Source of the DNA: Gaiellaceae bacterium
GTDB taxonomy: Bacteria > Actinomycetota > Thermoleophilia > Gaiellales > Gaiellaceae
Assembly (NCBI GenBank): GCA_026002995.1
Contig: BPGK01000001.1
Location: forward strand, 310,001-374,000
Direction of reading: 5' to 3'
DNA length: 64,000 nucleotides
The position numbers were made by a program, and so were the translations under genes. Below are positions 11,454 through 26,380 of this stretch, piece by piece; position 1 is the stretch's first letter, and each line of letters starts with the position of its first letter. The notes beneath the pieces are model-generated. The model was given only the letters and a program-made list of their open reading frames with translations, ran no database searches and was not told the DNA's origin.

Positions 11454-12526
11454 TGCGCATCGCCTTCGACGTCAGCCCGCTGAGCCACCCTCCGCTCGGG
11501 ATCGGGAACTACCTCCGAGGCTCGCTCGCCGGCCTCGTCGAGGCCGCAGCCGGAGAGCACGAGGTCATCGCCTTCGCGCCGACGAGCGTCCACGGCCCGC
11601 AGCGGATCCGGGCCGCGCTCGCGGGGATCGACGTCGAGCTCCGCACCTGGCGGCTTCCGTTCTCTCACGCGATCCGCACGGCGTGGAGCATGGCTGCGCG
11701 TCCCGCGGCCGAGCGGCTCCTCGGCGCCTTCGACGTCCTCCACTTCAGCGACTGGATGTACCCGCCCCAGCGGGCCGGCGTGCGCGCGACGACGATCCAC
11801 GACCTCGTGCCGCTGCACCATCCCGAGTGGACGACGCCGCGCACCCGTTCCATGCACACGCGCAAGTACGCGAACGCCGCCCGAACCTGCGACGTCGTCT
11901 TCGTGAACTCCGCCTTCACCGGCCGGGACGTCGTCGAGACGCTGCACATCCCGGTCGAGCGCGTTCGCGTCGCGCATCCGGCGCCGAAGCCCGTGTTCTC
12001 GCCGCAGGGAGAGCGCGCCGACCTCGGGGCTCCGTACGCGCTCACGGTCGCGACGCTCGAGCCCCGGAAGAACCTCCAGACGCTCGTGGAGGCGCACCGT
12101 CTCCTCGGGGGCGAGCTCCTGCTCGCGATCGCGGGCGGGGAGGGGTGGGGCGAGCAGCCCGAGCTCGACGCGCCCCGGATCCGTCGCCTCGGATTCGTGA
12201 GCGACGAGGAGCTCGCGCGGCTCTACCGGGGCGCCGCGGTCGTTGTCTACCCCTCGCGCTTCGAGGGCTTCGGCATCCCGGTGATCGAGGCCATGGCCTG
12301 CGGCTGCCCGGTCGTCGTCTCCTCGCACCCCTCGCTCGACGAGGCGGCGGGGGAGGCGGCAGTGCGCGCCGACCCCGACGATCCGGCCGCGATGGCCGCG
12401 GCGATCGAGCGCGCGCTACGAGAACGCGACGCCCTCGTCGTGGCCGGGCTCGAGCACGTCCGCCGGTTCAGCTGGCGCGCGGTCGGCGAGACCTTCCTGC
12501 GTGGGTACGAGGAGGCGCTGCGCTGA
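11453..12526 (+). CDS. GT4 family glycosyltransferase
   Basis: GT-B enzyme of 357 residues, ATG overlapping the previous TGA. Features are the N-terminal PLGIGNYLRGSL loop, the TTIHDLVPLHHPEW segment near residue 110, the donor-site TVATLEPRKNLQTLVEA near 195, and the E-x7-E motif in SRFEGFGIPVIEAMACG near 264. The LEPRKN string is typical of mannosyl-/rhamnosyl-type GT4 enzymes such as WbaZ-like proteins, but the sugar cannot be assigned. It is close in sequence to the GT4 genes at 12921 and 13886, so these three probably arose by duplication inside the operon. Confidence 0.88.
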   Translation: MRIAFDVSPLSHPPLGIGNYLRGSLAGLVEAAAGEHEVIAFAPTSVHGPQRIRAALAGIDVELRTWRLPFSHAIRTAWSMAARPAAERLLGAFDVLHFSDWMYPPQRAGVRATTIHDLVPLHHPEWTTPRTRSMHTRKYANAARTCDVVFVNSAFTGRDVVETLHIPVERVRVAHPAPKPVFSPQGERADLGAPYALTVATLEPRKNLQTLVEAHRLLGGELLLAIAGGEGWGEQPELDAPRIRRLGFVSDEELARLYRGAAVVVYPSRFEGFGIPVIEAMACGCPVVVSSHPSLDEAAGEAAVRADPDDPAAMAAAIERALRERDALVVAGLEHVRRFSWRAVGETFLRGYEEALR

Positions 12527-12540
12527 GCCGGCGCGAGGTC

Positions 12541-12924
12541 GTGATCGTCGTGCGCCGTCCCGGCCCGGAGTACCTCGTCGTGCTGCGCTCGCCGGAGCGG
12601 GGCGGGTACTGGAACCTCGTCGCCGGCGGGGTCGAGCCGGGCGAGACGCCGGCCGAGGCCGCCGCACGCGAGCTCGCGGAGGAGACCGGGCTCGAGGCCT
12701 CGGTCGTCCCGCTCGGGCTCGACCTCTCGTACGAGGGCCCACGGGGCCGCGTCCGTCTCGATGCCTTCCTCGCCGAGGCTCCTGCGGGATGGGAGCCGGT
12801 GCTCGACGCCGAGCACGTCGACTACCGCTGGTGCTCCGCAGACGAGGCGGTCTCGCTCCTCCACTACCCGGAGCCTCGCGCGGCGGTCGCTGCGGCCGCC
12901 GGACGCACGGAGGCGCGGCGATGA
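12541..12924 (+). CDS. NUDIX hydrolase
   Basis: Small protein of about 127 residues with a full Nudix box: G-x5-E-x7-R-E-L-x-E-E-x-G-L in the segment from GVEPGET to ELAEETGL. It hydrolyses a nucleoside diphosphate linked to another group; in a polysaccharide operon a GDP- or UDP-sugar is plausible. I chose the GTG at 12541. The frame is also open back to a CTG at 12523 that would overlap the previous TGA in the same way as neighbouring genes, so the true start may be 6 codons upstream. Its own stop overlaps the next ATG (ATGA). Confidence 0.82.
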   Translation: MIVVRRPGPEYLVVLRSPERGGYWNLVAGGVEPGETPAEAAARELAEETGLEASVVPLGLDLSYEGPRGRVRLDAFLAEAPAGWEPVLDAEHVDYRWCSADEAVSLLHYPEPRAAVAAAAGRTEARR

Positions 12925-13889
12925 AGGTGGGCGTCGACATCGCGCCCCTCGTGCAGACGCGCGCCGGTACCGCGCGCCACGTCCGCGGGCTCGTGTCGAA
13001 GCTGCGCGGCCGCCGTGAGGTCGAGCTCGAGCTCCTCTCCTTCGGCGGCCCGGGCCGGCCCTCGAGCGTCGTCCGCGACGCGCTCTGGTACCCGGTCGGC
13101 CTCGGCCTTCGGGCACGCCGACTGGACGTTCTCCACTGCACGACCTTCCGGGGCCCCGCCCGAGCGCAGGCGCCGGTGGTGCTGACGGCGCACGATCTCG
13201 CCGTCGTGCGCTACCCCGAGGCGTTCCCTCGCTGGCACCGCATGTACGGGCGCGTGGGGCTGCGCTCGATCCTGCGCTCGGCGGACGCTGTGGTGGCCGT
13301 GTCCGAGTTCACCCGCGACGAGCTCGTCGATCTCGCGAACGTTCCCCGCGAGCGCATCCGCGTCGTTCCGAACGGCGTCGACCCGATCTTCCGCCTCGAC
13401 GGCCCTCGCTCTGTCGGGGAGTACGTGCTCACGGTCGCCACGCTCGAGCCGCGCAAGAACCTCACGCGCGCTGTGGAGGCTGCGCGCATCGCGGGCGTCG
13501 AGCTGCGCGTCGTCGGGACGCGCGGCTGGGGCGGGGTGGCCGTTCCCGGTTGGGTCGGCGAGGTGTCGGACGCAGAGCTCGCCGCGCTCTACCGCGGCGC
13601 TCGCTGCGTCCTCTACCCCTCGCTCTACGAGGGCTTCGGCTTGCCCGTGCTCGAGGCGATGGCGTGCGGCGCCCCGGTCGTGACCTCGCGGGGCACCGCG
13701 ATGGAGGAGGTCGCGGGCGGGGCGGCCGTCCTCGTCGATCCGCACGACGCCGAGGCGATCGCGGCGGGGATCGTGGAGGCGATCGAGCGTCGGGACGAGC
13801 TCGTCCCCCGCGGTCTCGCCCGCGCCTCCGAGCTCACCTGGGAGCGTGCTGCCGACGCCGTGGTCGCCCTCTGGGAGGAGCTCGCGTGA
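12921..13889 (+). CDS. GT4 family glycosyltransferase
   Basis: GT-B enzyme of 322 residues beginning MKVGVDIAPLVQ, with RAGTARHVRGLV as the phosphate-contact loop, VVPNGVDPIF near residue 145, TVATLEPRKNLTRAVEA near 172, and E-x7-E in [17 protein letters not shown] near 233. It is short for the family but both domains are present. The ATG overlaps the NUDIX stop and its own stop overlaps the next GTG. It is a paralogue of the flanking GT4 genes. Confidence 0.88.
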   Translation: MKVGVDIAPLVQTRAGTARHVRGLVSKLRGRREVELELLSFGGPGRPSSVVRDALWYPVGLGLRARRLDVLHCTTFRGPARAQAPVVLTAHDLAVVRYPEAFPRWHRMYGRVGLRSILRSADAVVAVSEFTRDELVDLANVPRERIRVVPNGVDPIFRLDGPRSVGEYVLTVATLEPRKNLTRAVEAARIAGVELRVVGTRGWGGVAVPGWVGEVSDAELAALYRGARCVLYPSLYEGFGLPVLEAMACGAPVVTSRGTAMEEVAGGAAVLVDPHDAEAIAAGIVEAIERRDELVPRGLARASELTWERAADAVVALWEELA

Positions 13890-14923
13890 GTCGTCTCGTC
13901 GTCGTCGACGCGGACGTGCTCGGCCGGAGACGTACCGGCGACGAGACCTACGTCCGCAACCTCCTGCGCGAGCTCGCTCCGCTCGGGGAGCCGGGCGGCC
14001 TCCGGCTCGCCGCGGTGACGCGGCATCCCGAGCTCGTCCCCGCGGGGATCGAGCCGGTCGAGCTCGCCGCGCGCTCGCAGGAGCTCCGGATGGCGGTCTC
14101 GTTGCCCCGCCTCCTGCGTCGTCTCGGTGCGGCACTCGTCCATACGCAGTACGCCCTGCCGGCCCGCTGCCCGTGTCCAGCGGTCGTGACGGTGCACGAC
14201 GTGTCCTTCGCGCGCGACTCGTCGCTCATGGGGTTGCGCGACCGGGTCGTCTTCCGCGCGGTGGTGCCTCGCGCCGTGCGCGCCGCCGCGCGCGTGCTGA
14301 CCGTCTCCGAGCGCACGAAGCGCGACCTGGTCGAGCTCTACGGGCTGGAGGAGACCCGCATCGTCGTCACGCCGAACGGCGTCGACCCTGCCTTCCAGCC
14401 CGCCGCGCCGGAGGCGGGTGCCAGTCACGCGCGCGCCGGGTACGTCCTCGCGGTCGGGGCGATCCAGCATCGTAAGAACCAGCTCGCGGCGCTCGAGGCG
14501 GCGAGCGCCGTCGGGCTCCCCCTCGTTCTCGTCGGGCCGGAGAAGGATCGAGCGCTCGCGGGCGAGCTCCGCCGCCGAGGCGCCCGGCTCGAGGGCTACG
14601 TCGATCAGCGTCGGCTCGTGGATCTCTATCGCGGCGCGGCCTGCGTGATTCAGCCGTCTCGGTTCGAGGGCTTCGGCCTGCCCGTGCTCGAGGCGATGGC
14701 GTGCGGCACGCCCGTGGTGGCCGTCCGCGAGCCCGCGCTCCTCGAGGTCGCAGGCGATGCAGCGGTGCTCGTCGGCGAGTCCGAGCTCGCCGACGGGATC
14801 CGGCGAGCGCTCTCCGAGCGGGAGCGCCTCGCGGCGGCCGGGCTCGAGCGTGCGCGAACGTTCAGCTGGCGAGCGACGGCGAAGCGGACGCTCGCCGTGT
14901 ACCGCGAGGTGCTCGGCACGTGA
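13886..14923 (+). CDS. GT4 family glycosyltransferase
   Basis: GT-B enzyme of 345 residues, GTG start overlapping the previous stop. Visible are the RRTGDETYVRNLLREL loop, TVHDVSFARDSSLM near residue 105, VTPNGVDPAFQ near 165, AVGAIQHRKNQLAALEA near 190, and E-x7-E in SRFEGFGLPVLEAMACG near 255. It should add one sugar residue during repeat-unit assembly. Its stop overlaps the start of the GT2 gene. Confidence 0.88.
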   Translation: MSRLVVVDADVLGRRRTGDETYVRNLLRELAPLGEPGGLRLAAVTRHPELVPAGIEPVELAARSQELRMAVSLPRLLRRLGAALVHTQYALPARCPCPAVVTVHDVSFARDSSLMGLRDRVVFRAVVPRAVRAAARVLTVSERTKRDLVELYGLEETRIVVTPNGVDPAFQPAAPEAGASHARAGYVLAVGAIQHRKNQLAALEAASAVGLPLVLVGPEKDRALAGELRRRGARLEGYVDQRRLVDLYRGAACVIQPSRFEGFGLPVLEAMACGTPVVAVREPALLEVAGDAAVLVGESELADGIRRALSERERLAAAGLERARTFSWRATAKRTLAVYREVLGT

Positions 14924-16328: not shown

Positions 16329-18521
16329 TCAGTCCCCGAAGAGCGGCCTGAACCCGGCGTCGACGACGGCGCCGAGCTTACGCGCGTCGCTCTGTCGCGG
16401 GTCGACCTCCTTCGGCACGAATGTCGGTTCGAGCTCGATCTCGATCCGCCATGGCCTCTCCGGCACCGGGAGCAGGAACGGCGTGATCACGCAGTCGCGG
16501 ACGGTCGCAGTCTGCTCGGCGGTCACGCGTCCGATCGCCGGCTGCTTGTCCGGGCCCACGACGACGGGCCCGATCCGGACGACCGCGCGCGCAGGAGTCC
16601 GCTTCTCCGGGCTCGGGCACCACTCGACGCGCGAGAGCTTGACGAGGGCGAAGCCGGGGCCGTCGCGCGAGACGTCGTAGCGCGTGTACGCCGCCCGCGC
16701 CACGCGCTCCTCCGAGTCGCTCGGCGCCGCCATCCAACCGTCGGATTGGACACCGGTCAGCGCAGCCTTCAGCCTGAGGGGCTTGCCGTCGATCCGGTGC
16801 AGCAGCTGGCCGCCGTGCCGAGCGACGATCGGCGCGTCGAGCTCGACGCCCTTGAGGGCGAGCGCGTAGCGCGTCCCCGGTGCCGGAGTCAGCGTGCCGT
16901 CACTCGTGGCGAGATCCGGGGTGAGGACGGGCGCACCGGCTCGGATCGCCGTTCCGTCGAGGCTCCACACCTTCCGGATCGAGCGGTTGAAGAACTCGGT
17001 GAGCCAGATGTTGGTCGGGTCTGTGATCTGTTGCCCGAGGACGACGACCGGGGCGCCGTGCGTCGCCTCGTCCACCCACTGGTAGGGCTTGGGAAAGTTC
17101 CGAGCGGCCTGATCGGAGAGCGTCCGCTCGCCCTCGGCCGCATAGACCTGCGTGGTGAGGCTCCAGACGACGACGAGGGCCGCGGCGCTCGCGGCCACGG
17201 TGCGGAAGGCAGCCGACCCCCGAGGCAGCACTCGCAACGCGACCGCGGTCGTAAGTGCGACGAGGAAGGCGACGGCGATCGCGGTCTCGATCCGGCCCTC
17301 GGGCCAGCCCAGCTCTCGGTTGGCGAACGCGAGGATCGCGAGCCCATGCGCCTCGTAGTAGGGGTGCTCGAGCTGGATCGGAACCGTGAGAACGACGTAT
17401 CCGGCGACTGCGGCGGCCGCTCCGATCGACCACCAGCCGCCAATGCCGCGAGCGACGGCGAGCGCCGTCGCAGCGGCGAGAACGGGCACGAGGTAGATCA
17501 CGTTTCGCTCGACGATGAGGGTTGCGAACACCGTCGATAGGTGCGCGCCCTTGATGCCGGCGTAGGTCACGAACGTGGCGAGCGAGGCGACGGTCGTCGT
17601 CACGAAGGCGCGCGTTCTCGGATCGTGCGGCTCGGCTCGTGGTCTCGCGAGCGCAGCGAGGCCGACGAGCACGGGCACGATCCCGATCCCGACCGCCAGC
17701 GCACCGAGCGCCCAGCTTCCGTGCTCGACGATGCGCTCTTTGAAGAAGCCCGTCGTCTCGCGCCAGCTCCGAGACAGGCTCCCCATAGCCGCGGAGAAGG
17801 CGAGGGCGACGCCGATCGCGAGCGTCGCCGCACCCACCCAGTCCCACCGTGACCACGTCGCGCGCCAGCGTCGGACAGGCCCGGACTGCCAGCCGATCCA
17901 GAGCAGTCCGAGCGCGAGGACGGCGAGGAGGATCGAGAGCTGCGTGCGCGTCAGCGCCGCGAGCCCGGACGCGAGGACCGCGACGCCCAACCGCGTCCAG
18001 CTCGGCTCGACGAGACAGCGGGCGATCGTCCACAACGCGAGGGTCGAGAGCGGGTAGGCGAGCGGCTCCTCGACGAGGATCGGCGAGTAGGCGAGCGCTG
18101 GGACCGCGATCGAGGCGCCGGCCGCCCCGACCGCGTACCAGTAGGGCACGACGAGCCGGGCGAGTGCGAAGGCCGGGAAGATCGTCGCAGTCATCGCGAG
18201 CACGAGGACGAGCTTCGCCGTCGCGTACGCGGTCGTCGTCGAGTCGATCCACCACACGGGCGCCAGGGCGTACGCGACGAGCGAGGCCAGGCCCCCGTAC
18301 GGCTCTCCTCGGCGCGCGGGCTCGCCCGTCTCCGCGATCGCCCGGGCGAGCTGGGTCAACTCGAGCTCGTCGATGAAGATGGTCGGAACGAGGCGGCGTG
18401 ACGCCTGCCAGGCATACAGCGTCGAGAGCGCGAAGTAGAGGACGAGTAGCGGGATCGCGGGCCAGAGCCGCGCGAGGAGATCCGGCTTCGGACCGGCCGC
18501 GTGCGCTCCGCCGGAGGTCAC
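16329..18521 (-). CDS. GT-C-like polytopic membrane protein
   Basis: Protein of 730 residues: about 11-12 helices over the first 490 residues, then a soluble domain of about 230 residues. The first external loop IFIDELELTQLARAIAETGEPARRGEP carries the acidic residues expected of a GT-C enzyme. The soluble part contains LTEFFNRSIRKVWSLDG, which matches VNQNEFFNRAVGPVYYLVE in the protein at 9324-11453, so the two are paralogues in both halves. The start is a GTG overlapping the stop of the upstream WecA-like fusion (GTGA), so they are cotranscribed. The donor sugar is unknown. Confidence 0.76.
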   Translation of the reverse strand: MTSGGAHAAGPKPDLLARLWPAIPLLVLYFALSTLYAWQASRRLVPTIFIDELELTQLARAIAETGEPARRGEPYGGLASLVAYALAPVWWIDSTTTAYATAKLVLVLAMTATIFPAFALARLVVPYWYAVGAAGASIAVPALAYSPILVEEPLAYPLSTLALWTIARCLVEPSWTRLGVAVLASGLAALTRTQLSILLAVLALGLLWIGWQSGPVRRWRATWSRWDWVGAATLAIGVALAFSAAMGSLSRSWRETTGFFKERIVEHGSWALGALAVGIGIVPVLVGLAALARPRAEPHDPRTRAFVTTTVASLATFVTYAGIKGAHLSTVFATLIVERNVIYLVPVLAAATALAVARGIGGWWSIGAAAAVAGYVVLTVPIQLEHPYYEAHGLAILAFANRELGWPEGRIETAIAVAFLVALTTAVALRVLPRGSAAFRTVAASAAALVVVWSLTTQVYAAEGERTLSDQAARNFPKPYQWVDEATHGAPVVVLGQQITDPTNIWLTEFFNRSIRKVWSLDGTAIRAGAPVLTPDLATSDGTLTPAPGTRYALALKGVELDAPIVARHGGQLLHRIDGKPLRLKAALTGVQSDGWMAAPSDSEERVARAAYTRYDVSRDGPGFALVKLSRVEWCPSPEKRTPARAVVRIGPVVVGPDKQPAIGRVTAEQTATVRDCVITPFLLPVPERPWRIEIELEPTFVPKEVDPRQSDARKLGAVVDAGFRPLFGD

Positions 18522-20329
18522 CGCAGCGTGGCCTCGACGGCCCGCGGCGACGAGAACTCGGTGCGCCTGCGCACGATCCTGCACTCGACGCCGGCGTGCG
18601 CTGCTGCGGCGACGACGAGCTCGAGGCGCTCGGCCGGCGCGTCGGGGATGGCGATCAAGACCTCGCTCGCACGGGTGCTCGTGATCGCCCGCTCGGCCTC
18701 GTCGAGGCTCCCGACGACGCTGACGCCGAGGATCCGCCGGCGACGGACGCGAGGGTTGTCGTCGAGGAAGCCGACCGGTCTCCCATCGCCGCTCTCGCGG
18801 AGCTCGCGCACGAGCCAGCGACCCGCGCGCCCTGCCCCGACGACGAGAACGCGCGGCCCTCCTCGCCGCTCGCGCGCCTCGGGGAGGAGCCGCAGCGCAA
18901 GGCGGGACCCGCCGACGAGGAGCGTGCAGAGCACCGCCTCGACGACGAGCACCTCCAGGAGCGGGAACGGGCCGACGAGCTTGAGCGCGTCGACGGCGAC
19001 GTAGGTCAGGCCCGCTCCGAGGACGCACGCGAGCGCGATCGGGACGGCGTCGCGGGCGGTGGCGAAGCGCCACACCCGCCGATAGATCCCGAGGAGCACG
19101 AAGAGCGCGTACTGGATGGCGAGCAGGAGGGGCAGCGTGGCGAGGAAGAGCGAGCGCTCGAACTCGTTGCCGAGCCCGCCGACGACGAGCACGTAGGCGG
19201 CGAGCAGAGCGACGCCGATGGCGGCGAAGTCGACGACGACCTCGACGAGCCGGCGAGGCTCGAAGACGAGCGCCCGCCAGAGCGGGGGCTCCTCCGCCTC
19301 GAGACCCTGCCGCGTGCGCTCTTCGACGTCGCTGAGGAAGCTCCCGAACTGGACGAGGATCACGAACGTCACGAGGACGCCGAAGGCCGTGAGCCGGCTC
19401 GAGTCGAGCACGTTGTACGCCAGCGCCGTCGCTCCGATGGCGGCGGCGACGAGCGCGAGCAGCAACACCGCCTTCGTCTCGGACAGCCCGTAGTAGACGA
19501 GGCGGTGCGACGTGTGGTCCTTGCCCCCCTGCGCCACTGGTCGCCGCTCGACGAGGCGGACGAGCGTGACCAGAGCCGTGTCGAGGATCGGGACGGCGAG
19601 CACGAGGAGCGGCAGGAGGACGGTCGCCGTCGTCGCGCCCGCGGCGGTCCAGCTCGAGGCGAGCGCGAGGCAGGCGAGCCCGAACCCGAGCACCTGGCTC
19701 CCCGAGTCGCCCATGAAGACGGCCGCCCCGCGTCGCGGGCGGAGGTTGAAGGGCAGGAAGGCGACGCACGCCGCCCCCAGCGCGAGGGAGAGGGCGAGCA
19801 CGAGCTCGTTCGGATGCTCGGTGAGCGCGTCGATCGCGAAGTACGCGCAGGCGATCGCCGCCAGCGTCGCGGCGAGCCCGTCCATGTTGTCGAGGAGGTT
19901 GAAGGCGTTCGTGATCCCGACGAGCCAGAGGAGGCCGATCCCCCAGGCGAGGACGTCGTTGCGCACGAGTTCCACGGAGAGCCCGCTCGCGAGCACGACG
20001 ACCGCCGCGGCGACCTGCGCCACGAGCTTCGCGAGCGGGCGCAGGTGGCGGAGGTCGTCGACCAGGCCGGCGACGAAGAGGAGCGCGAGGCCCACGAGGA
20101 TCCCCGCGAGCTCGGAGCTCGGCTCCACCGTCCCCGCTGCCAGTGCCGCCCCGACTCCGACGGCGAGGCCGGCGGCGATGCCGACTCCTCCGAAGGTGGG
20201 GGTGGGTCGCTCGTGCCAGCGCTCTCCCGTCGGCTCGGCCACGAGCCGGCGTCCGGCCGGCGAGCGGAGGAGCGCCGAGAGGACCGTGATCGTGACGGAG
20301 AGCGCGGCGATCGCGACGATCGCATCCAC
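18518..20329 (-). CDS. WecA/MraY-type phosphoglycosyltransferase fused to WbpM-like N-region
   Basis: Protein of 603 residues with two joined parts. Residues 1-310 are a polyprenyl-phosphate N-acetylhexosamine-1-phosphate transferase with the family motifs DDLR (91), NAFNLLDNMDG (141), MGDSGS (206) and HTSHR (272), and about 10 helices. Residues 355-603 are four further helices plus a Rossmann-type nucleotide-binding unit (VLVVGAGRAGRWLVREL near 494), the pattern of the N-terminal half of WbpM/CapD and of WcaJ-type transferases. The catalytic SDR or PHPT domain that normally follows is absent. It likely starts glycan synthesis by making undecaprenyl-PP-sugar. The GTG start has TACCCT 9 nt upstream. 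Confidence 0.85.
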   Translation of the reverse strand: MDAIVAIAALSVTITVLSALLRSPAGRRLVAEPTGERWHERPTPTFGGVGIAAGLAVGVGAALAAGTVEPSSELAGILVGLALLFVAGLVDDLRHLRPLAKLVAQVAAAVVVLASGLSVELVRNDVLAWGIGLLWLVGITNAFNLLDNMDGLAATLAAIACAYFAIDALTEHPNELVLALSLALGAACVAFLPFNLRPRRGAAVFMGDSGSQVLGFGLACLALASSWTAAGATTATVLLPLLVLAVPILDTALVTLVRLVERRPVAQGGKDHTSHRLVYYGLSETKAVLLLALVAAAIGATALAYNVLDSSRLTAFGVLVTFVILVQFGSFLSDVEERTRQGLEAEEPPLWRALVFEPRRLVEVVVDFAAIGVALLAAYVLVVGGLGNEFERSLFLATLPLLLAIQYALFVLLGIYRRVWRFATARDAVPIALACVLGAGLTYVAVDALKLVGPFPLLEVLVVEAVLCTLLVGGSRLALRLLPEARERRGGPRVLVVGAGRAGRWLVRELRESGDGRPVGFLDDNPRVRRRRILGVSVVGSLDEAERAITSTRASEVLIAIPDAPAERLELVVAAAAHAGVECRIVRRRTEFSSPRAVEATLR

Positions 20330-20376: not shown

Positions 20377-21177
20377 GTGTCCGTCTACGTCGACGTCCTG
20401 CGCTACCGGGAGCTGTTCGGAAGCCTCTTCCGGCGCGACCTGCGCGCGAAGTACCGCGGCTCGGTCCTCGGCCTCGGCTGGTCGCTCCTGCACCCGCTCG
20501 TGCTCATGCTCGTCTACCTGCTCGTCTTCTCCGTCCTCTGGCGGGTCGCCGAGGTGGGGACCGAGGACTACTGGCTCTTCCTGCTCTGCGGGCTCCCGGC
20601 CTGGGTCTTCTTCGCGACGAGCTCACAGGCCGCTGCGCGGAGCTTGCTCGAGAACGCGAATCTCATCCGCAAGGTGCGATTCCCCCGGCAGCTCGTTCCG
20701 CTCTCGATCGTGGGGACGAACCTCGTCGCCTTCGGCGTCATGCTCGCGGTCGTCGCTGTGCTCAGCGTCGCGACACGTCCCGAGGCTCGAGACACGGTGT
20801 GGCTCGTCGTCCCGCTCGGCGCGCTCTTCGCATGCCTCGTCGCGGGCTTCGCGCTCGCCGTCGCCTCGCTCAACGCGCTCTTCCGCGACGTCGAGCACCT
20901 CCTCGCGGCGCTTCTGCTCCCGTGGTTCTTCCTCACGCCCATCCTCTACTCGCTCGACCAACTCCCGGGGGTCGACGAGTACCCCGTCGCAGCCTTCGCG
21001 CTGCACTGGGCGAACTTCCTCACCCCTCCCATCGAGGCGATGCGCGCCGTCCTCTTCACCGGGGCTGCGCCGGCGCTCGCCGACGTTCTCTACACCGCGT
21101 GCGCCGCGCTCGTCGGGCTCGCGGTCGGCGCCTTCGTCTTCAGCCGCTCGGACGACCGGATCGCGACCGAAGTCTGA
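20377..21177 (+). CDS. wzm: ABC-2 type polysaccharide exporter permease
   Basis: Membrane component of 266 residues with six hydrophobic segments (LLHPLVLMLVYLLVFSVLW, LVAFGVMLAVVAVLSV, LLLPWFFLTPILYSL and others). The N-terminal amphipathic start RRDLRAKYRGSVLGLGWSLLHP is a signature of Wzm/TagG/KpsM exporters. It forms the channel for a lipid-linked glycan with the Wzt ATPase. Unusually, the ATPase gene is not adjacent but lies beyond an 825-bp gene on the other strand. The last 38 bp overlap that gene tail to tail. Confidence 0.88.
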   Translation: MSVYVDVLRYRELFGSLFRRDLRAKYRGSVLGLGWSLLHPLVLMLVYLLVFSVLWRVAEVGTEDYWLFLLCGLPAWVFFATSSQAAARSLLENANLIRKVRFPRQLVPLSIVGTNLVAFGVMLAVVAVLSVATRPEARDTVWLVVPLGALFACLVAGFALAVASLNALFRDVEHLLAALLLPWFFLTPILYSLDQLPGVDEYPVAAFALHWANFLTPPIEAMRAVLFTGAAPALADVLYTACAALVGLAVGAFVFSRSDDRIATEV

Positions 21178-21964
21178 CGATCGCGCGTCCCTCGAAGAGC
21201 GCGTCAGCGCCGCGGTAGGCGGGGAGACCCTCGTGCTCCTCGGGCTCGAGGCCGTCCAGGAGCGAGGGGAGGAGGAGGGGATGCGCGAAGCGCGGGTTGC
21301 GTCCTCCCCCGGGCGCCCAGGGCGCGAGCCGTCGGCGATCGGCGCGGGAGGACGCCGCGATCGATCCTCCCACCGCCAGGTACCCCTCCTCGTGAGCGTC
21401 GAGCAGGCGGCGCGACCAGTCGGGGGCCGGGATCGAGCCGGCGACGAGGTGGGCGACGGCCTCGGCCTCTCTGTCGACGACGGGCTCCTCCTGGGCGGCG
21501 AGCGCGGCGCTCGTCTCGTCGTCCGGCCCCCCGTGCACGACCACTGCGAGCCGGCGCTCGCTGATGCGGGGCCGAACTGCGACGGGGAGCTCGAGCGGCC
21601 AGGAGCCGACCTCCTGGAACCAGAAGCGGTGCTCCTCGACGAGGTCGAAGGCGAGCCGGTACTCGCCCGGCGGCCGGGGCGCTTCGACGGCGATCTCGAG
21701 CTCGACCTCCTCGCCCGGGGCGACCGGGCGCAGGAACGCGCTGCGCGCGCCGTCCCAGACGATCGGGTTCCCGAGCGGATCGAGCCAGTGGTAGGAGAGT
21801 TGGACGCCGTCGCGGCCGCGCGAGCGCCAGCAGGCGGTGCCGGCGTTCTCGAGCCGCAGGCGCGCGCGCGTGGCGACGCCAGCCCGCGGCTCCTCGAGCT
21901 CGTAGGCGATCCAGCGAACCGCGAGCGGACCCACGGGGACGGGGTGCTCGCCGACCCGGTGCAT
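21140..21964 (-). CDS. Unknown protein between wzm and wzt; Ig-like N-domain
   Basis: No named family recognised for this 274-residue protein. Residues 10-105 look like an immunoglobulin-type beta domain (ATRARLRLENAGTACW, VQLSYHWLDPLGNPIVWDG, PPGEYRLAFDLVEE), the style of NBR1-like or carbohydrate-binding modules. The YHWLD string also occurs in the C-terminal Wzt domain of the neighbouring ATPase. Residues 110-274 contain VHGGPDDETSAALAAQE and IPAPDWSRRLLDAHEEGY, which faintly recall a degenerate GT-A domain (weak inference). It is divergent from wzt, with overlapping -10 boxes, and convergent with wzm. A role in recognising or modifying the exported chain is the best guess. Confidence 0.7.
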   Translation of the reverse strand: MHRVGEHPVPVGPLAVRWIAYELEEPRAGVATRARLRLENAGTACWRSRGRDGVQLSYHWLDPLGNPIVWDGARSAFLRPVAPGEEVELEIAVEAPRPPGEYRLAFDLVEEHRFWFQEVGSWPLELPVAVRPRISERRLAVVVHGGPDDETSAALAAQEEPVVDREAEAVAHLVAGSIPAPDWSRRLLDAHEEGYLAVGGSIAASSRADRRRLAPWAPGGGRNPRFAHPLLLPSLLDGLEPEEHEGLPAYRGADALFEGRAIVRLRSRSGRPSG

Positions 21965-21972
21965 GCGGTCAC

Positions 21973-21979
21973 TACTCTA
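21973..21979. promoter_or_regulatory. Overlapping divergent -10 boxes (wzt / 21964 gene)
   Basis: On the plus strand TACTCT (21973-21978) ends 7 nt before the wzt ATG. On the minus strand TAGAGT (21979-21974) ends 9 nt before the ATG at 21964. The two boxes share five base pairs, so RNA polymerase can probably serve only one gene at a time. Confidence 0.5.
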
Positions 21980-21985
21980 GATCGC

Positions 21986-23194
21986 ATGCAGGCGGGCGAG
22001 ATCACGGTCGACGGCGTCTCCCGCCGGTTTCGCGTCTATGCGCGCGAGGCACGGACGCTGAAGGACCTGTTCGTCCAACGGGGACGCTCGGAGGCGACCG
22101 AGGTGTGGGCGCTTCGCGACGTGACGCTCCGCGTCGAGCCGGGGGAGGCGGTCGGGCTGATCGGACGCAACGGCTCGGGCAAGACGACGCTCCTGCGCCT
22201 GATCGCCGGGATCATCAAGCCGACGACGGGCGCGGTCGCCGCCGGTGGGCGGATCGGCTCACTGCTCGAGCTGGGAGCCGGGTTCCACCCGGACTTCACC
22301 GGCCGGGAGAACGTGTTCCTGAATGGCGCGATCCAGGGGTTGCGTCGTGACGACATCAAGCGGCGGTTCGACGAGATCGTCGCCTTCGCCGAGCTCGAGC
22401 ACGCGATCGACCGGCCCGTCCGGACCTACTCGTCCGGGATGACGATGCGCCTCGGCTTCGCGATCGCGGCGTTCCTCGACGCGGACATCCTCCTGCTCGA
22501 CGAGGTCTTCGCCGTCGGCGACGAGGCGTTCCAGCGCAAGTGCTTCGGTCGGATCTTCCGCTTCAAGCAGGACGGGGGGACGATCGTCTTCGTCTCGCAC
22601 GACGCCGCCGCCGTCGAGCGGCTGTGCGAGCGCTCGGTCCTCCTCGAGCGAGGGCGCGTTTCGTACGACGGGCCGACTCGCGAGGCGGTCGCGCGCTACC
22701 GGCGGTCCCTCGCCGACGAGGTCGATCCCGCCGAGCGCGGTGTCGGGCTGCGGGAGTGGGGCTCCGGCGAGGCGTCGATCCGCTCGGCCGCGCTCGTCGG
22801 TCGGGAGGGGAGCGAGCGGCTTCAGTTCCTGTCCGGCGAGCCGTTCGTCGTCGAGGTCGCGATCGAGGCGACGCCCGGGCTTCGGGCGCCACGGCTCCAG
22901 CTCGAGCTCCGCGACGACGCGGGCACGCTCGTCGGGGGCGAGGCGGTCGACCTCGAGGCGATCGGCTGGTCGGCGACAGACGGCTCGGCTGTCGTCCGCT
23001 ACGAGCTCGACCCCCTCCCCCTTGCCGACGGCCGCTTCCACCTGCGTCTTGGACTGACCGATTCGTCTGGAGAGCGTCTCTACCACTGGCTGGACGACGC
23101 ACTCGCCTTCGTCGTCTACCCCGGCGGCGAGGAGCGCGGCGTCGTCCGCTTTGCAGGGACGTGGACGCTCGAGGAGAAGATCACCGTCCGATGA
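21986..23194 (+). CDS. wzt: ABC polysaccharide exporter ATPase with Wzt C-terminal domain
   Basis: Protein of 402 residues. The nucleotide-binding domain has Walker A GRNGSGKT (60-67), signature YSSGM (148-152), Walker B ILLLDE (168-173) and the switch His in FVSHD. The motif GSLLELGAGFHPDFTGRENV is typical of the polysaccharide/teichoic-acid exporter class. Residues from about 265 to 402 form a beta-rich Wzt_C domain, which in characterised systems binds the capped end of the glycan, so the exporter should be selective for a terminal modification. It drives export through Wzm. Its TGA overlaps the ATG of the next small gene. Confidence 0.9.
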   Translation: MQAGEITVDGVSRRFRVYAREARTLKDLFVQRGRSEATEVWALRDVTLRVEPGEAVGLIGRNGSGKTTLLRLIAGIIKPTTGAVAAGGRIGSLLELGAGFHPDFTGRENVFLNGAIQGLRRDDIKRRFDEIVAFAELEHAIDRPVRTYSSGMTMRLGFAIAAFLDADILLLDEVFAVGDEAFQRKCFGRIFRFKQDGGTIVFVSHDAAAVERLCERSVLLERGRVSYDGPTREAVARYRRSLADEVDPAERGVGLREWGSGEASIRSAALVGREGSERLQFLSGEPFVVEVAIEATPGLRAPRLQLELRDDAGTLVGGEAVDLEAIGWSATDGSAVVRYELDPLPLADGRFHLRLGLTDSSGERLYHWLDDALAFVVYPGGEERGVVRFAGTWTLEEKITVR

Positions 23195-23575: not shown

Positions 23576-24118
23576 ATGCCCACGATCGTCGTGCCGTACC
23601 GGGGCAATGCCAAGCGTCGGCTCTCTCCGCGGCTGCGCGCCGGCGCAGCGGTCGCGATGCTCGGCGACGTCGTCGAGGCCGCGCTCGACGTGGGTCGGGT
23701 CCTCGTCGTGACCGACGACCCCGACGTCGTCCCGGCCGACGCCGAAGTGGTTCCGGATCCCGGATGCGGGCTCGGCGAGGCGGTGCGCGCAGGCCTCCGC
23801 CGCGTCACCGGTCACGCGCTCGTCGTGAACGCCGACCTGCCCTGCGCGACTCCTGCCTCGCTCCGCCTCCTCGAGGATGCCGGTCTCGCCTTGGTCGAGG
23901 CTCCCGACGGGACGACGAACGCGCTCTCCCTGCCGGATCCCTCCCGCTTCGCGCCGCTCTACGGCGCCGGGAGCGCGGCTCGCTTCCGCAGGCACGCCCC
24001 CTTCGTCACCGTCGCCGTGTGGGAGCTCGAGCACGACGTCGACACGGACGCAGACCTCGAGCGCCTGGCCGGGCGCGTCGGACCGAGGACGCGCGCGCTC
24101 CTCGCCGTCCCGGTGTGA
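23576..24118 (+). CDS. cofC: 2-phospho-L-lactate (or PEP) guanylyltransferase
   Basis: Nucleotidyltransferase of 180 residues that activates 2-phospholactate or, in actinobacteria, phosphoenolpyruvate with GTP for the first F420 assembly step. The N-terminal IVVPYRGNAKRRLSPRL corresponds to the CofC/FbiD signature, VLVVTDDPDVV and VVNADLPCATP to the metal-binding and product-site segments. It is about 25-30 residues shorter than typical CofC, mainly in the region after residue 100. The next gene, cofD, starts inside its final codon and stop. Family identity is firm from sequence plus operon; substrate choice (PEP or lactate) is not visible. Confidence 0.85.
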   Translation: MPTIVVPYRGNAKRRLSPRLRAGAAVAMLGDVVEAALDVGRVLVVTDDPDVVPADAEVVPDPGCGLGEAVRAGLRRVTGHALVVNADLPCATPASLRLLEDAGLALVEAPDGTTNALSLPDPSRFAPLYGAGSAARFRRHAPFVTVAVWELEHDVDTDADLERLAGRVGPRTRALLAVPV

Positions 24119-25029
24119 ACGTCGTCGTTCTCTCCGGCGGAGGCGGCGGCGCCCGCTTCGCCCGTGGCGTGTACGACGTCGTCGGGCCGGGCGAGCTCAC
24201 CGTCATCGGCAACGTCGGCGACGACCTCGAGTTCCTCGGGCTCCACGTCTCCCCCGATCTCGACAGCCTGCTCTACACGCTCGCCGGGCTCCTCGACGAG
24301 GGACGACGCTGGGGCCGCGCCGGGGAGACGTGGAACGCGCTCGCGGCGGCGGGGGAGTGGGGCGGCGAGACCTGGTTTCGGCTCGGCGATCGAGACCTCG
24401 GTCTCCACCTCGTTCGCTCGGAGGCGCTGCGCTCGGGTCGATCGCTCGCGGAGGTGACGGCTGAGCTCGTGCGACGCGCCGGAGTGAGTGCGCGCATCGT
24501 GCCGGCGACGAACGACCGCCTCCGCACGCACGTGCTGACGGAGACCGGCCGCGTCTCGTTCCAGGAGTGGTTCGTCGGGCGCGGCCACGAGGACGAGGTC
24601 GTCGCCATCGAGTATGAGGGAGCGGAGGCCGCGTCACCCGCTCCCGGGGTCGTGGAGGCGATCGAGGAGGCCGACGCGGTCCTCCTCGCGCCCAGCAACC
24701 CGTTCCTCTCGATCGGCCCGATCGTCGCCGTTCCCGGGATCCGCACCGCGCTCGAGAGACGGACCGTGCGCTGCGTCGCCGTCAGCCCGCTGATCGGAGG
24801 TGCCGCGGTCACGGGCCCGCTCGCCCGTATGCTCTCACGCATGTCCGGCGGAACAGCCCCTCGCCAGGTCGCAGGGTGCTACACGGGGCTCATCGACGCC
24901 CTCGTCATCGACGAGGCGGACGTGCCGGCGGAGGCGGACGTCCCGCTCGTCGTCGACTCGACTCTCATGGCCGACCGCGCCGCCGAACGGCGAGTCGCCG
25001 AGGTCGCCCTGGAGGCCGCGTGCGCGTAG
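24115..25029 (+). CDS. cofD: 2-phospho-L-lactate transferase (F420 biosynthesis)
   Basis: CofD/FbiA of 304 residues, transferring the activated phospholactyl or enolpyruvyl group onto Fo. It begins with the family glycine stretch VVVLSGGGGGARFARGV, followed by VIGNVGDDLEFLGLHVSPDLDSLLYTLAG, which is near-diagnostic and holds the GDP and metal contacts. APSNPFLSIGPI near residue 200 and the VSPLIGGAAVTGP loop near 223 complete the set. The GTG start overlaps the cofC stop and its own stop overlaps fno. Part of a complete F420 tail-assembly operon; fbiC (Fo synthase) is not in the window. Confidence 0.92.
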   Translation: MNVVVLSGGGGGARFARGVYDVVGPGELTVIGNVGDDLEFLGLHVSPDLDSLLYTLAGLLDEGRRWGRAGETWNALAAAGEWGGETWFRLGDRDLGLHLVRSEALRSGRSLAEVTAELVRRAGVSARIVPATNDRLRTHVLTETGRVSFQEWFVGRGHEDEVVAIEYEGAEAASPAPGVVEAIEEADAVLLAPSNPFLSIGPIVAVPGIRTALERRTVRCVAVSPLIGGAAVTGPLARMLSRMSGGTAPRQVAGCYTGLIDALVIDEADVPAEADVPLVVDSTLMADRAAERRVAEVALEAACA

Positions 25030-25640
25030 CGCTCGTCGGCGGGACGGGAGCGTTCGGCGTCGCCCTCGCGACGCGGCTCCTCGCGGCGGGCCACGAGCCC
25101 GTGATCGGATCGCGCGACGCCGAGCGGGCGGCCTCGATCGCCGCCGATCTCGGCTGCGAGGGCGCTGCGAACGAGGACGCGGTCCGCTCGGCCGAGCTCG
25201 TCGTGCTCGCGACGAAGGCCGACGGCGCGGTCGAGGCTGCGAGGTCGCTGCGCGAGGCGATCGGGACGACGCCGGTCCTCTCGGTGGCCGCGGAGCTTCG
25301 CTTCACGAAGGAGGGCGTTCTCCCGACCCCCGAGCCCACCTCGATCGCCGAGCGCATCCAGGCGGTTCTGGACGCACCGGTCGTCGCAGGGCTCCACTCG
25401 CTCGCGGCGTCGAACTTGGGAGGCGCGGAGCCTCCCGACGAGGATGCGCTCATCTGCGGCGACGACCCGGCCGCGAAGGCGCTCGTCCTCGAGCTCGCCT
25501 CGAGCCTCACGGCGGGCCGCGCGCTCGACGCCGGGCCCCTAGCCGGGGCCCGCGCCCTCGAGGGGATGACCGCGGTGATCGTCAACCTGAACAAGCGCTA
25601 CAAGGCGCATGCCGGGTTGCGTGTGACCGGGATTCCTTGA
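25020..25640 (+). CDS. npdG: NADPH-dependent F420 reductase (Fno)
   Basis: 206-residue dehydrogenase that moves hydride between F420 and NADP. The N-terminus RVALVGGTGAFGVALATRLLAAGHEPVIGSRD gives the NADP Rossmann motif (GGTGAFG) and the Arg after strand 2 that favours NADP. VVLATKADGAVEAARSL and the GLHSLAASNLG segment fit the family. It lies between cofD and cofE with 10-bp and 4-bp overlaps, so cofactor and user enzyme are made together. The GTG at 25020 is chosen by overlap and by the start of the Rossmann strand. Confidence 0.87.
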   Translation: MRVALVGGTGAFGVALATRLLAAGHEPVIGSRDAERAASIAADLGCEGAANEDAVRSAELVVLATKADGAVEAARSLREAIGTTPVLSVAAELRFTKEGVLPTPEPTSIAERIQAVLDAPVVAGLHSLAASNLGGAEPPDEDALICGDDPAAKALVLELASSLTAGRALDAGPLAGARALEGMTAVIVNLNKRYKAHAGLRVTGIP

Positions 25641-26380
25641 TCGACGAGGTGCGCGTCATCCCGCTGCGCGGGATTCCGGAGCTCGAGGAGGGGGACGATC
25701 TCGCTGCGCTCCTCGCCTCCGCCGCCGCCACCGCGGGAGGCCTCGAGCACGCCGACATCATCGTCGTCGCGCAAAAGGCCGTCTCGAAGGTGGAGGGTCG
25801 GGTCGTCCACCTCGGATCGGTCTCGCCCTCCGAGCGCGCCCGCGAGCTCGCGGGGCCGGGTGATCCGCGGCGCGCCGAGGTGATCCTCCGCGAGTCGCGG
25901 ACGATCGTCCGCTCCCGCCCGCCGCTTGTCATCGCCGAGACGCGACACGGCTTCGTGTGTGCGTCGGCCGGCGTCGACGCATCCAACGCGAAGGGCGTCG
26001 ACACCCTCGTCCTCCTCCCCCTCGATCCCGACGCCTCGGCCGCGCGACTGCGCGATCGGCTCCACGAGCTGACCGGCGCGCGGATCGGCGTCATCGTCTC
26101 CGACTCGTTCGGTCGCGCCTGGCGTCGAGGGACGACCGACGTCGCGCTCGGGGTCGCCGGCATCCGCCCGCTCCTGAGCCTCGCCGGCGAGGTTGATGCG
26201 GCGGGCTACGAGCTGCACGCGACGGAGATCGCGGTCGCGGACGAGATCGCCGGCGCCGCGGAGCTCGTCATGGGCAAGACCGCGGGGATCCCGGCTGCGA
26301 TCGTCCGCGGGCTCTCCCTGGAGGGCGTAGGGCGCGGGAGCGACCTCCTCATGCCGCGGGAGCGCGACCTCTTCCGCTGA
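25637..26380 (+). CDS. cofE: F420-0:gamma-glutamyl ligase
   Basis: CofE of 247 residues, adding glutamate to F420-0 with GTP. Diagnostic parts are RVIPLRGIPELEEGDDLAALL at the N-terminus, IIVVAQKAVSKVEGRVV near residue 40, the GVDASNAKG segment near 115, and VIVSDSFGRAWRRGTTDVALGVAG near 155 with the metal-binding Asp. The C-terminal nitroreductase-like domain found in mycobacterial FbiB is absent. The proposed start is TTG overlapping the fno stop; a GTG four codons further is possible. Last gene of the F420 operon. Confidence 0.9.
   Translation: MIDEVRVIPLRGIPELEEGDDLAALLASAAATAGGLEHADIIVVAQKAVSKVEGRVVHLGSVSPSERARELAGPGDPRRAEVILRESRTIVRSRPPLVIAETRHGFVCASAGVDASNAKGVDTLVLLPLDPDASAARLRDRLHELTGARIGVIVSDSFGRAWRRGTTDVALGVAGIRPLLSLAGEVDAAGYELHATEIAVADEIAGAAELVMGKTAGIPAAIVRGLSLEGVGRGSDLLMPRERDLFR

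Follow-up and report, generated by a model that had tools for sequence, protein, structure and literature searches.

A WecA/MraY-type phosphoglycosyl transferase carrying a dehydratase-derived membrane bundle and Rossmann domain in Gaiellaceae and other bacteria

Analysis of a 64,000-nucleotide stretch of Gaiellaceae bacterium contig BPGK01000001.1 (the window) revealed a gene in which a WecA/MraY-type phosphoglycosyl transferase (PGT) is joined to a four-helix bundle and a Rossmann domain. The gene occupies positions 18518..20329 of the minus strand, is read from a GTG start at 20329 to 18518 and encodes 603 amino acids, as judged from the open reading frame, Pfam and NCBIfam matches, homologues and an AlphaFold 2 (AF2) model. 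An earlier note on this DNA had reported the 603-residue frame; the frame exists, but its strand is corrected here to minus, the plus-strand frame over the same interval being antisense. The fusion is real, conserved across phyla and apparently an undescribed variant of known parts. It is present in single copy in the window genome, which encodes a separate unfused WecA-like protein and a WbpM-like dehydratase elsewhere. By analogy with characterised relatives, we favour with moderate confidence the view that the protein is a functional WecA-type PGT that starts a surface glycan, and that its dehydratase-derived module most likely regulates this initiation through a uridine nucleotide or UDP-sugar.

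Residues 1–340 (19310..20329, minus strand) form a polytopic PGT with 10–11 transmembrane helices, defined by Pfam, alignment, AF2 model and fold matches. Pfam places Glycos_transf_4 (PF00953; GT4 below) at residues 75–225 with an E-value of 2e-31 and a score of 109.6 bits against a cut-off of 27, which establishes family membership, and the NCBIfam WecA model covers residues 28–328. The score of 92 bits against the WecA equivalog model TIGR02380 is well short of its cut-off of 326, so the domain is WecA-like and not an enterobacterial WecA. In an alignment of 74 homologues, residues D91, D92, N144, D147, D150, D208, H272 and H275 are invariant. Comparison of the AF2 model with known structures using Foldseek and VIA-align gave Z scores of 28–31 for this half, with MraY at 31 and DPAGT1 at 29; the catalytic Asp/His motifs DD, NxxDxxD, GDSG and HxxH and the MraY fold are thus both present. 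The Pfam score and the invariance of the catalytic residues bear out the earlier description of a complete polyprenyl-phosphate sugar-1-phosphate transferase, and because these residues are conserved the domain is very likely to be catalytically active. The N-terminal half shares its fold and all catalytic motifs with WecA, MraY and DPAGT1; these differ in that polytopic PGTs are tabulated as 'PGT only' (PMC10942596, Table 1), whereas the fusion adds a membrane-anchored Rossmann module.

The AF2 model, built on the 74-sequence alignment, has a predicted local distance difference test score (pLDDT) of 84.6 and consists of the 10–11-helix membrane enzyme, a linker, four helices, a five-stranded Rossmann unit and a disordered tail. 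The junction, for which the earlier note had suggested structure prediction, is a variable linker of low pLDDT between the PGT and the bundle (residues 341–356; 19262..19309, minus strand); in most close pairs its rate of non-synonymous substitution (dN) exceeds that of the other three segments. The four-helix membrane bundle, of WbpM/CapD type, spans residues 357–489 (18863..19261, minus strand) on the evidence of alignment, AF2 and a match to WbaP (8t53), and its helices comprise residues 358–383, 389–412, 425–449 and 457–489. Y416 and R476 are invariant among the 74 homologues, D367 is invariant or nearly so, and there is a 'GxYRxxWRY' signature. An R359/R360/E363 motif at the membrane face is kept in the fusions and is much weaker in dehydratases. 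The Rossmann domain, supported by Pfam, alignment, AF2 and fold matches, spans residues 490–588 (18566..18862, minus strand), with the modelled unit at 493–585 and its last strand at 582–585. Pfam matches CoA_binding_3 (PF13727) at residues 460–586 with 34.1 bits against a cut-off of 25, which, with the four-helix bundle in front, identifies the module. The GAGRAGR motif is at residues 498–504 and D523 and D524 close strand 2; G498, A499, G503 and D523 are invariant in the same alignment. The nearest solved Rossmann unit is 3nkl (Z 14.9), catalogued as UDP-D-quinovosamine 4-dehydrogenase, followed by Rex (13.7) and other NAD(P)-binding domains.

Nothing catalytic follows the Rossmann unit. A Pfam search of the fusion protein found neither Polysacc_synt_2 nor Bac_transf. 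The NCBIfam models of large monotopic PGTs (Lg-PGTs) match residues 366–595 by their N-terminal halves only (TIGR03025, 2–230 of 445; TIGR03023, 2–232 of 453) and the protein ends after the Rossmann unit, so the C-terminal monotopic PGT catalytic domain is absent. WbaP 8t53 aligns over bundle and Rossmann domain, with model residues 357–586 on WbaP residues 11–241. The root-mean-square deviation is 9.3, and the arrangement of helices and Rossmann domain therefore differs between the two proteins. The alignment stops at WbaP residue 241, before the β-hairpin at 251–268, and the last residues of the fusion (589–603; 18521..18565, minus strand) form a disordered tail with a pLDDT of about 35, where homologues also end; the WbaP-type hairpin is thus absent. 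The homologues terminate no more than about 55 residues from this point, where WbaP and the dehydratases run on into hairpin and catalytic domain, the dehydratases with an 'ELIxGxVxVxxIRxVxxEDLLGR' segment ahead of the latter. Pfam, AF2 and sequence position agree with the earlier note on the four helices and the Rossmann unit with GAGRAGR at 498. It was also right that the catalytic domain usually served by this module is missing and that a non-homologous initiating enzyme stands in front, the WecA/MraY fold being unrelated to the usual partners.

The architecture recurs in 74 complete single-frame homologues, 29–74% identical, from at least seven phyla, in answer to the earlier note's proposal to look for Glycos_transf_4 followed by CoA_binding_3 across genomes. 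The carriers are Thermoleophilia/Gaiellaceae and other Actinomycetota, Omnitrophota, Nitrospirota, Nitrospinota, Desulfobacterota/Myxococcota, Chloroflexota and Abditibacteriota. Within the window's class, the fusion is confined to the window's own family: 29 genomes of that family hold 17 nearly complete copies, and none turned up in the 120 other genomes searched. Elsewhere, about 20 of 148 genomes from the Desulfosarcina phylum carry it, as do 15 of 117 from the phylum of an Omnitrophota genome and 4 of 118 from that of a Nitrospirales genome. An assembly or sequencing error that deleted a stop codon between two genes has a negligible probability: no evidence for it was found, and dozens of independent assemblies present one open frame, among them a full-length homologue with 62% identity (G111), about 75 others and a complete Desulfosarcina chromosome. 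These single-frame homologues rule out a split gene; orthologues are not always divided into two genes, the outcome that the earlier note had named as fatal to the fusion, although a few unfused relatives exist.

Purifying selection acts on both halves of the protein. The ratio of non-synonymous to synonymous substitution (dN/dS) in the bundle and Rossmann parts is mostly 0.02–0.14 in close pairs, like that of the GT4 part; pairs with L143, L146, L147 and L148 were left out, as their values were implausible, probably through choice of the wrong reading frame. In one single-chromosome genome (G401), a PF00953 search yielded two proteins only, the fusion and a protein of 363 residues that is probably MraY, and the fusion is also the sole PF13727 protein. 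Since it is the only PF00953 protein besides the probable MraY, the fusion is likely to be a working initiator in this organism.

Sequence comparison traces the module to the N-terminal half of WbpM/CapD-type dehydratases and not to WcaJ/WbaP-type PGTs. A profile of the C-terminal half of the fusions matches dehydratases with values of about 1e-23 to 1e-76, the majority lying under 1e-38; for Lg-PGTs the values reach only 1e-11 to 1e-26. In a tree of 76 C-terminal sequences, fusions and dehydratases stand together against all Lg-PGTs (support 99/93), and scores and tree together rule out an origin from WcaJ/WbaP. The WbpM/CapD/PglF dehydratases are accordingly the closest kin of this half, including 'GxYRxxWRY' and 'FxDD' motifs, but the fusion lacks their short-chain dehydrogenase/reductase (SDR) domain (Polysacc_synt_2) and carries a PGT in front. 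The earlier note had described the second part as normally preceding either a WbpM/CapD dehydratase or a WcaJ transferase; both do share the module, but the lineage is that of the dehydratases.

The simplest reading of the trees is that the fusion probably arose once, long ago, with later spread across phyla and occasional loss, though monophyly is not firm. The fusions lie on one side of a branch in the C-terminal tree with a support of 66/70. The fused GT4 halves group together (97/97), with an unfused protein from the window's own order (G197) nested among them, and a second GT4 tree does not reject a single fusion clade (approximately unbiased test, p-AU 0.17). Frames of 981–1039 residues in four genomes (G354, G373, G541 and G579) raised the suspicion of a triple fusion of GT4 with a full dehydratase; three proved to be adjacent separate genes, and in G373 the GT4 is joined to a region resembling an O-antigen ligase. 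At L155:1350-4319, L156:1453-4431 and L157:2186-5128, a GT4 gene ends 51, 51 and 3 nucleotides, respectively, before a full WbpM-type dehydratase gene. Such a wbpL–wbpM-like order could yield a fusion of this kind by loss of the stop codon, but direct descent from these pairs is unsupported, their GT4s being far from the fused ones. The order wbpV–wbpL–wbpM is found in Pseudomonas aeruginosa O-antigen clusters. It resembles the present case in the succession of SDR, GT4 and module-bearing protein, as separate genes also in L155–L157, and differs in that the fusion unites GT4 and module in one protein with no dehydratase.

Outside Actinomycetota, the fusion usually has a UDP-sugar SDR gene directly upstream, as in 31 loci (16 in Omnitrophota, 10 in Nitrospirota and others). 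The encoded protein belongs to an NAD-dependent family and its nearest solved structures are UDP-glucuronate decarboxylases; in model comparison it reached no equivalog cut-off. The window genome has no SDR beside the fusion, its best match (53% identity) being unlinked on the chromosome. The same SDR directly precedes unfused close GT4 siblings in six Omnitrophota loci (L221, L222, L223, L224, L225 and L227), often overlapping or within a few bases, and stands in front of the unfused G197 relative as well. Since it accompanies fused, unfused and ligase-fused GT4s alike, we conclude that the unit is a cassette of SDR and WecA-like gene whose PGT bears alternative C-terminal attachments. The ligase-fused form was seen at L158:1795-4911 (G373, 1039 residues) and L226:2771-5050 (G710, 760 residues), where a WecA-like GT4 continues into an O-antigen ligase-like multi-transmembrane region beside the same SDR family; the kinship is weaker for L158 than for L226. 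This arrangement possibly links initiation to polymerisation or ligation.

The proposed function leans on WbaP. In a screen of 20 nucleotides, UMP, UDP and UTP emerged as potential stabilising ligands of its isolated PF13727 domain and UDP-Gal was destabilising; UMP inhibits the full-length enzyme with an IC50 of 4.1 µM (PMC10942596). Allosteric control through the domain was proposed for WbaP and extended to PglF-type dehydratases, the sharing of the domain with PglF/CapD dehydratases being already published (PMC10942596). The WbaP hairpin serves dimerisation and reaches into the partner's active site (PMC10942596). The fusion has in common with WbaP/WcaJ Lg-PGTs the four-helix bundle, PF13727 and the type of reaction (UDP-sugar and undecaprenyl phosphate). 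It differs in that its catalytic domain has the unrelated polytopic fold and is N-terminal instead of C-terminal, no hairpin follows the Rossmann unit, and the module belongs to the dehydratase branch. In the favoured reading, the PGT would transfer sugar-1-phosphate from a UDP-sugar to undecaprenyl phosphate and so start a surface glycan, in the window most likely exported by the adjacent Wzm/Wzt ABC transporter. The module would lie on the cytoplasmic side beside the PGT active site and would bind a uridine nucleotide or UDP-sugar, regulating initiation, for example through product inhibition by UMP, although both the ligand and the direction of control are inferred. As the hairpin is missing, the WbaP mechanism cannot be transferred unchanged and coupling to the active site must take another route, such as one by way of the short linker inside a single chain; the steps leading from binding to inhibition are likewise conjectural. 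The conserved Rossmann motif fits nucleotide binding, and we count the SDR upstream in 31 loci as a link to UDP-sugar supply in favour of this reading. The earlier proposal that the module senses a nucleotide or nucleotide-sugar agrees with the WbaP data and is plausible for the fusion.

Several points weigh against this interpretation. Ligand binding and activity of the fusions are predictions from sequence. Rossmann folds bind many ligands, and the nearest sensor folds, those of Rex, bind NAD(H) and not UMP. The hairpin by which WbaP reaches the other subunit's active site is absent, and UMP may inhibit WbaP in part by competition at the active site. Moreover, the basic reaction does not require the module, as judged from close relatives that are unfused yet have the same SDR neighbour.

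The C-terminal half might instead be a scaffold, for PGT oligomerisation or for docking the SDR, a dehydratase or the next glycosyltransferase, with a nucleotide motif of structural value only. We regard this as the less likely account but one deserving weight: most of the WbaP dimer interface belongs to the module (PMC10942596); in EpsZ the module is linked with dimerisation and with the activator EpsW, and a response regulator is proposed to favour the active dimer, which has the cytoplasmic domains of unknown function at its interface (PMC12802240); and the adjacent SDR genes and the retained membrane-face motif would suit docking. However, the hairpin that makes the WbaP dimer is missing, MraY-type PGTs dimerise by themselves (PMC10942596), and a pure scaffold need not hold G498, A499, G503 and D523 invariant. 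The ranking of Rex repressors and other NAD(P)-binding domains directly behind 3nkl, together with the NAD-dependent family of the upstream SDR, would also suit a redox or cofactor sensor that couples initiation to NAD-dependent sugar modification, such as that by the neighbouring SDR. This we consider improbable: Rossmann folds generally resemble one another, the WbaP domain, the sole tested relative, responded to uridine nucleotides (PMC10942596), and the fusion in the window genome has no SDR at its side. More improbable still is an inert remnant, the outcome of an accidental joining of a WecA-like gene to the start of a dehydratase gene that afterwards lost its catalytic part. The head-to-tail gene pairs of L155–L157 offer an obvious route and unfused relatives are viable, but those GT4s are distant, and occurrence in at least seven phyla, invariant residues and a C-terminal dN/dS well below 1 all disfavour it.

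In the window, a Wzm-type ABC-2 polysaccharide export permease identified by Pfam (20377..21177, plus strand) is divergent from the fusion, 47 bp from its start, an arrangement that recurs in about 27 actinobacterial relatives. A domain match places a Wzt-type ABC ATPase region with a C-terminal glycan-binding Wzt_C domain at 21899..23194 on the plus strand, its start codon not being fixed. On the opposite strand, a putative frame at 21143-21964 (minus) has a weak, below-cut-off match to an Ig-like domain. Downstream of the fusion, an open reading frame encodes a large membrane protein with no Pfam match (16329..18500, minus strand), a neighbour kept in 23 actinobacterial relatives. Glycosyltransferases also lie near the fusion. 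At 11683-12921 and 12501-14920 (plus), a NUDIX-domain frame precedes two overlapping frames for GT1-type glycosyltransferases, close to the export genes. CofD and CofE (coenzyme F420 side-chain ligase) genes at 23764-26380 (plus) adjoin the polysaccharide export genes.

Undecaprenyl phosphate is scarce and common to all envelope glycans, so the control of its commitment matters. The parts of the fusion are known, and so is the regulatory hypothesis for PF13727, which is proposed to answer to uridine nucleotides by restraining Lg-PGTs and possibly dehydratases as well (PMC10942596). What is new is a third, unrelated catalytic host of the module, a polytopic PGT. No description of a PF00953–PF13727 fusion was found in the open-access papers searched. 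Three unrelated hosts make 'portable', the earlier note's term for this regulator, a fair one, although the sensing idea itself had already been published. Tentatively, and at somewhat less than even odds, bundle and PF13727 may be a general membrane-anchored uridine-nucleotide sensor mounted on three unrelated folds (monotopic PGT, polytopic PGT and SDR dehydratase). The fusion would then be the first allosterically feedback-regulated WecA/MraY-type enzyme, controlling undecaprenyl phosphate commitment otherwise than by the WbaP hairpin. That an initiating enzyme of unrelated structure carries this module too, and has kept it across phyla, lends independent evolutionary support to the published proposal. 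Since unfused forms of the PGT part exist both as well-studied homologues and as close relatives in nature, the effect of the module should be separable by truncation, and the fusion offers a clean test of the module as a general regulator of glycan production.

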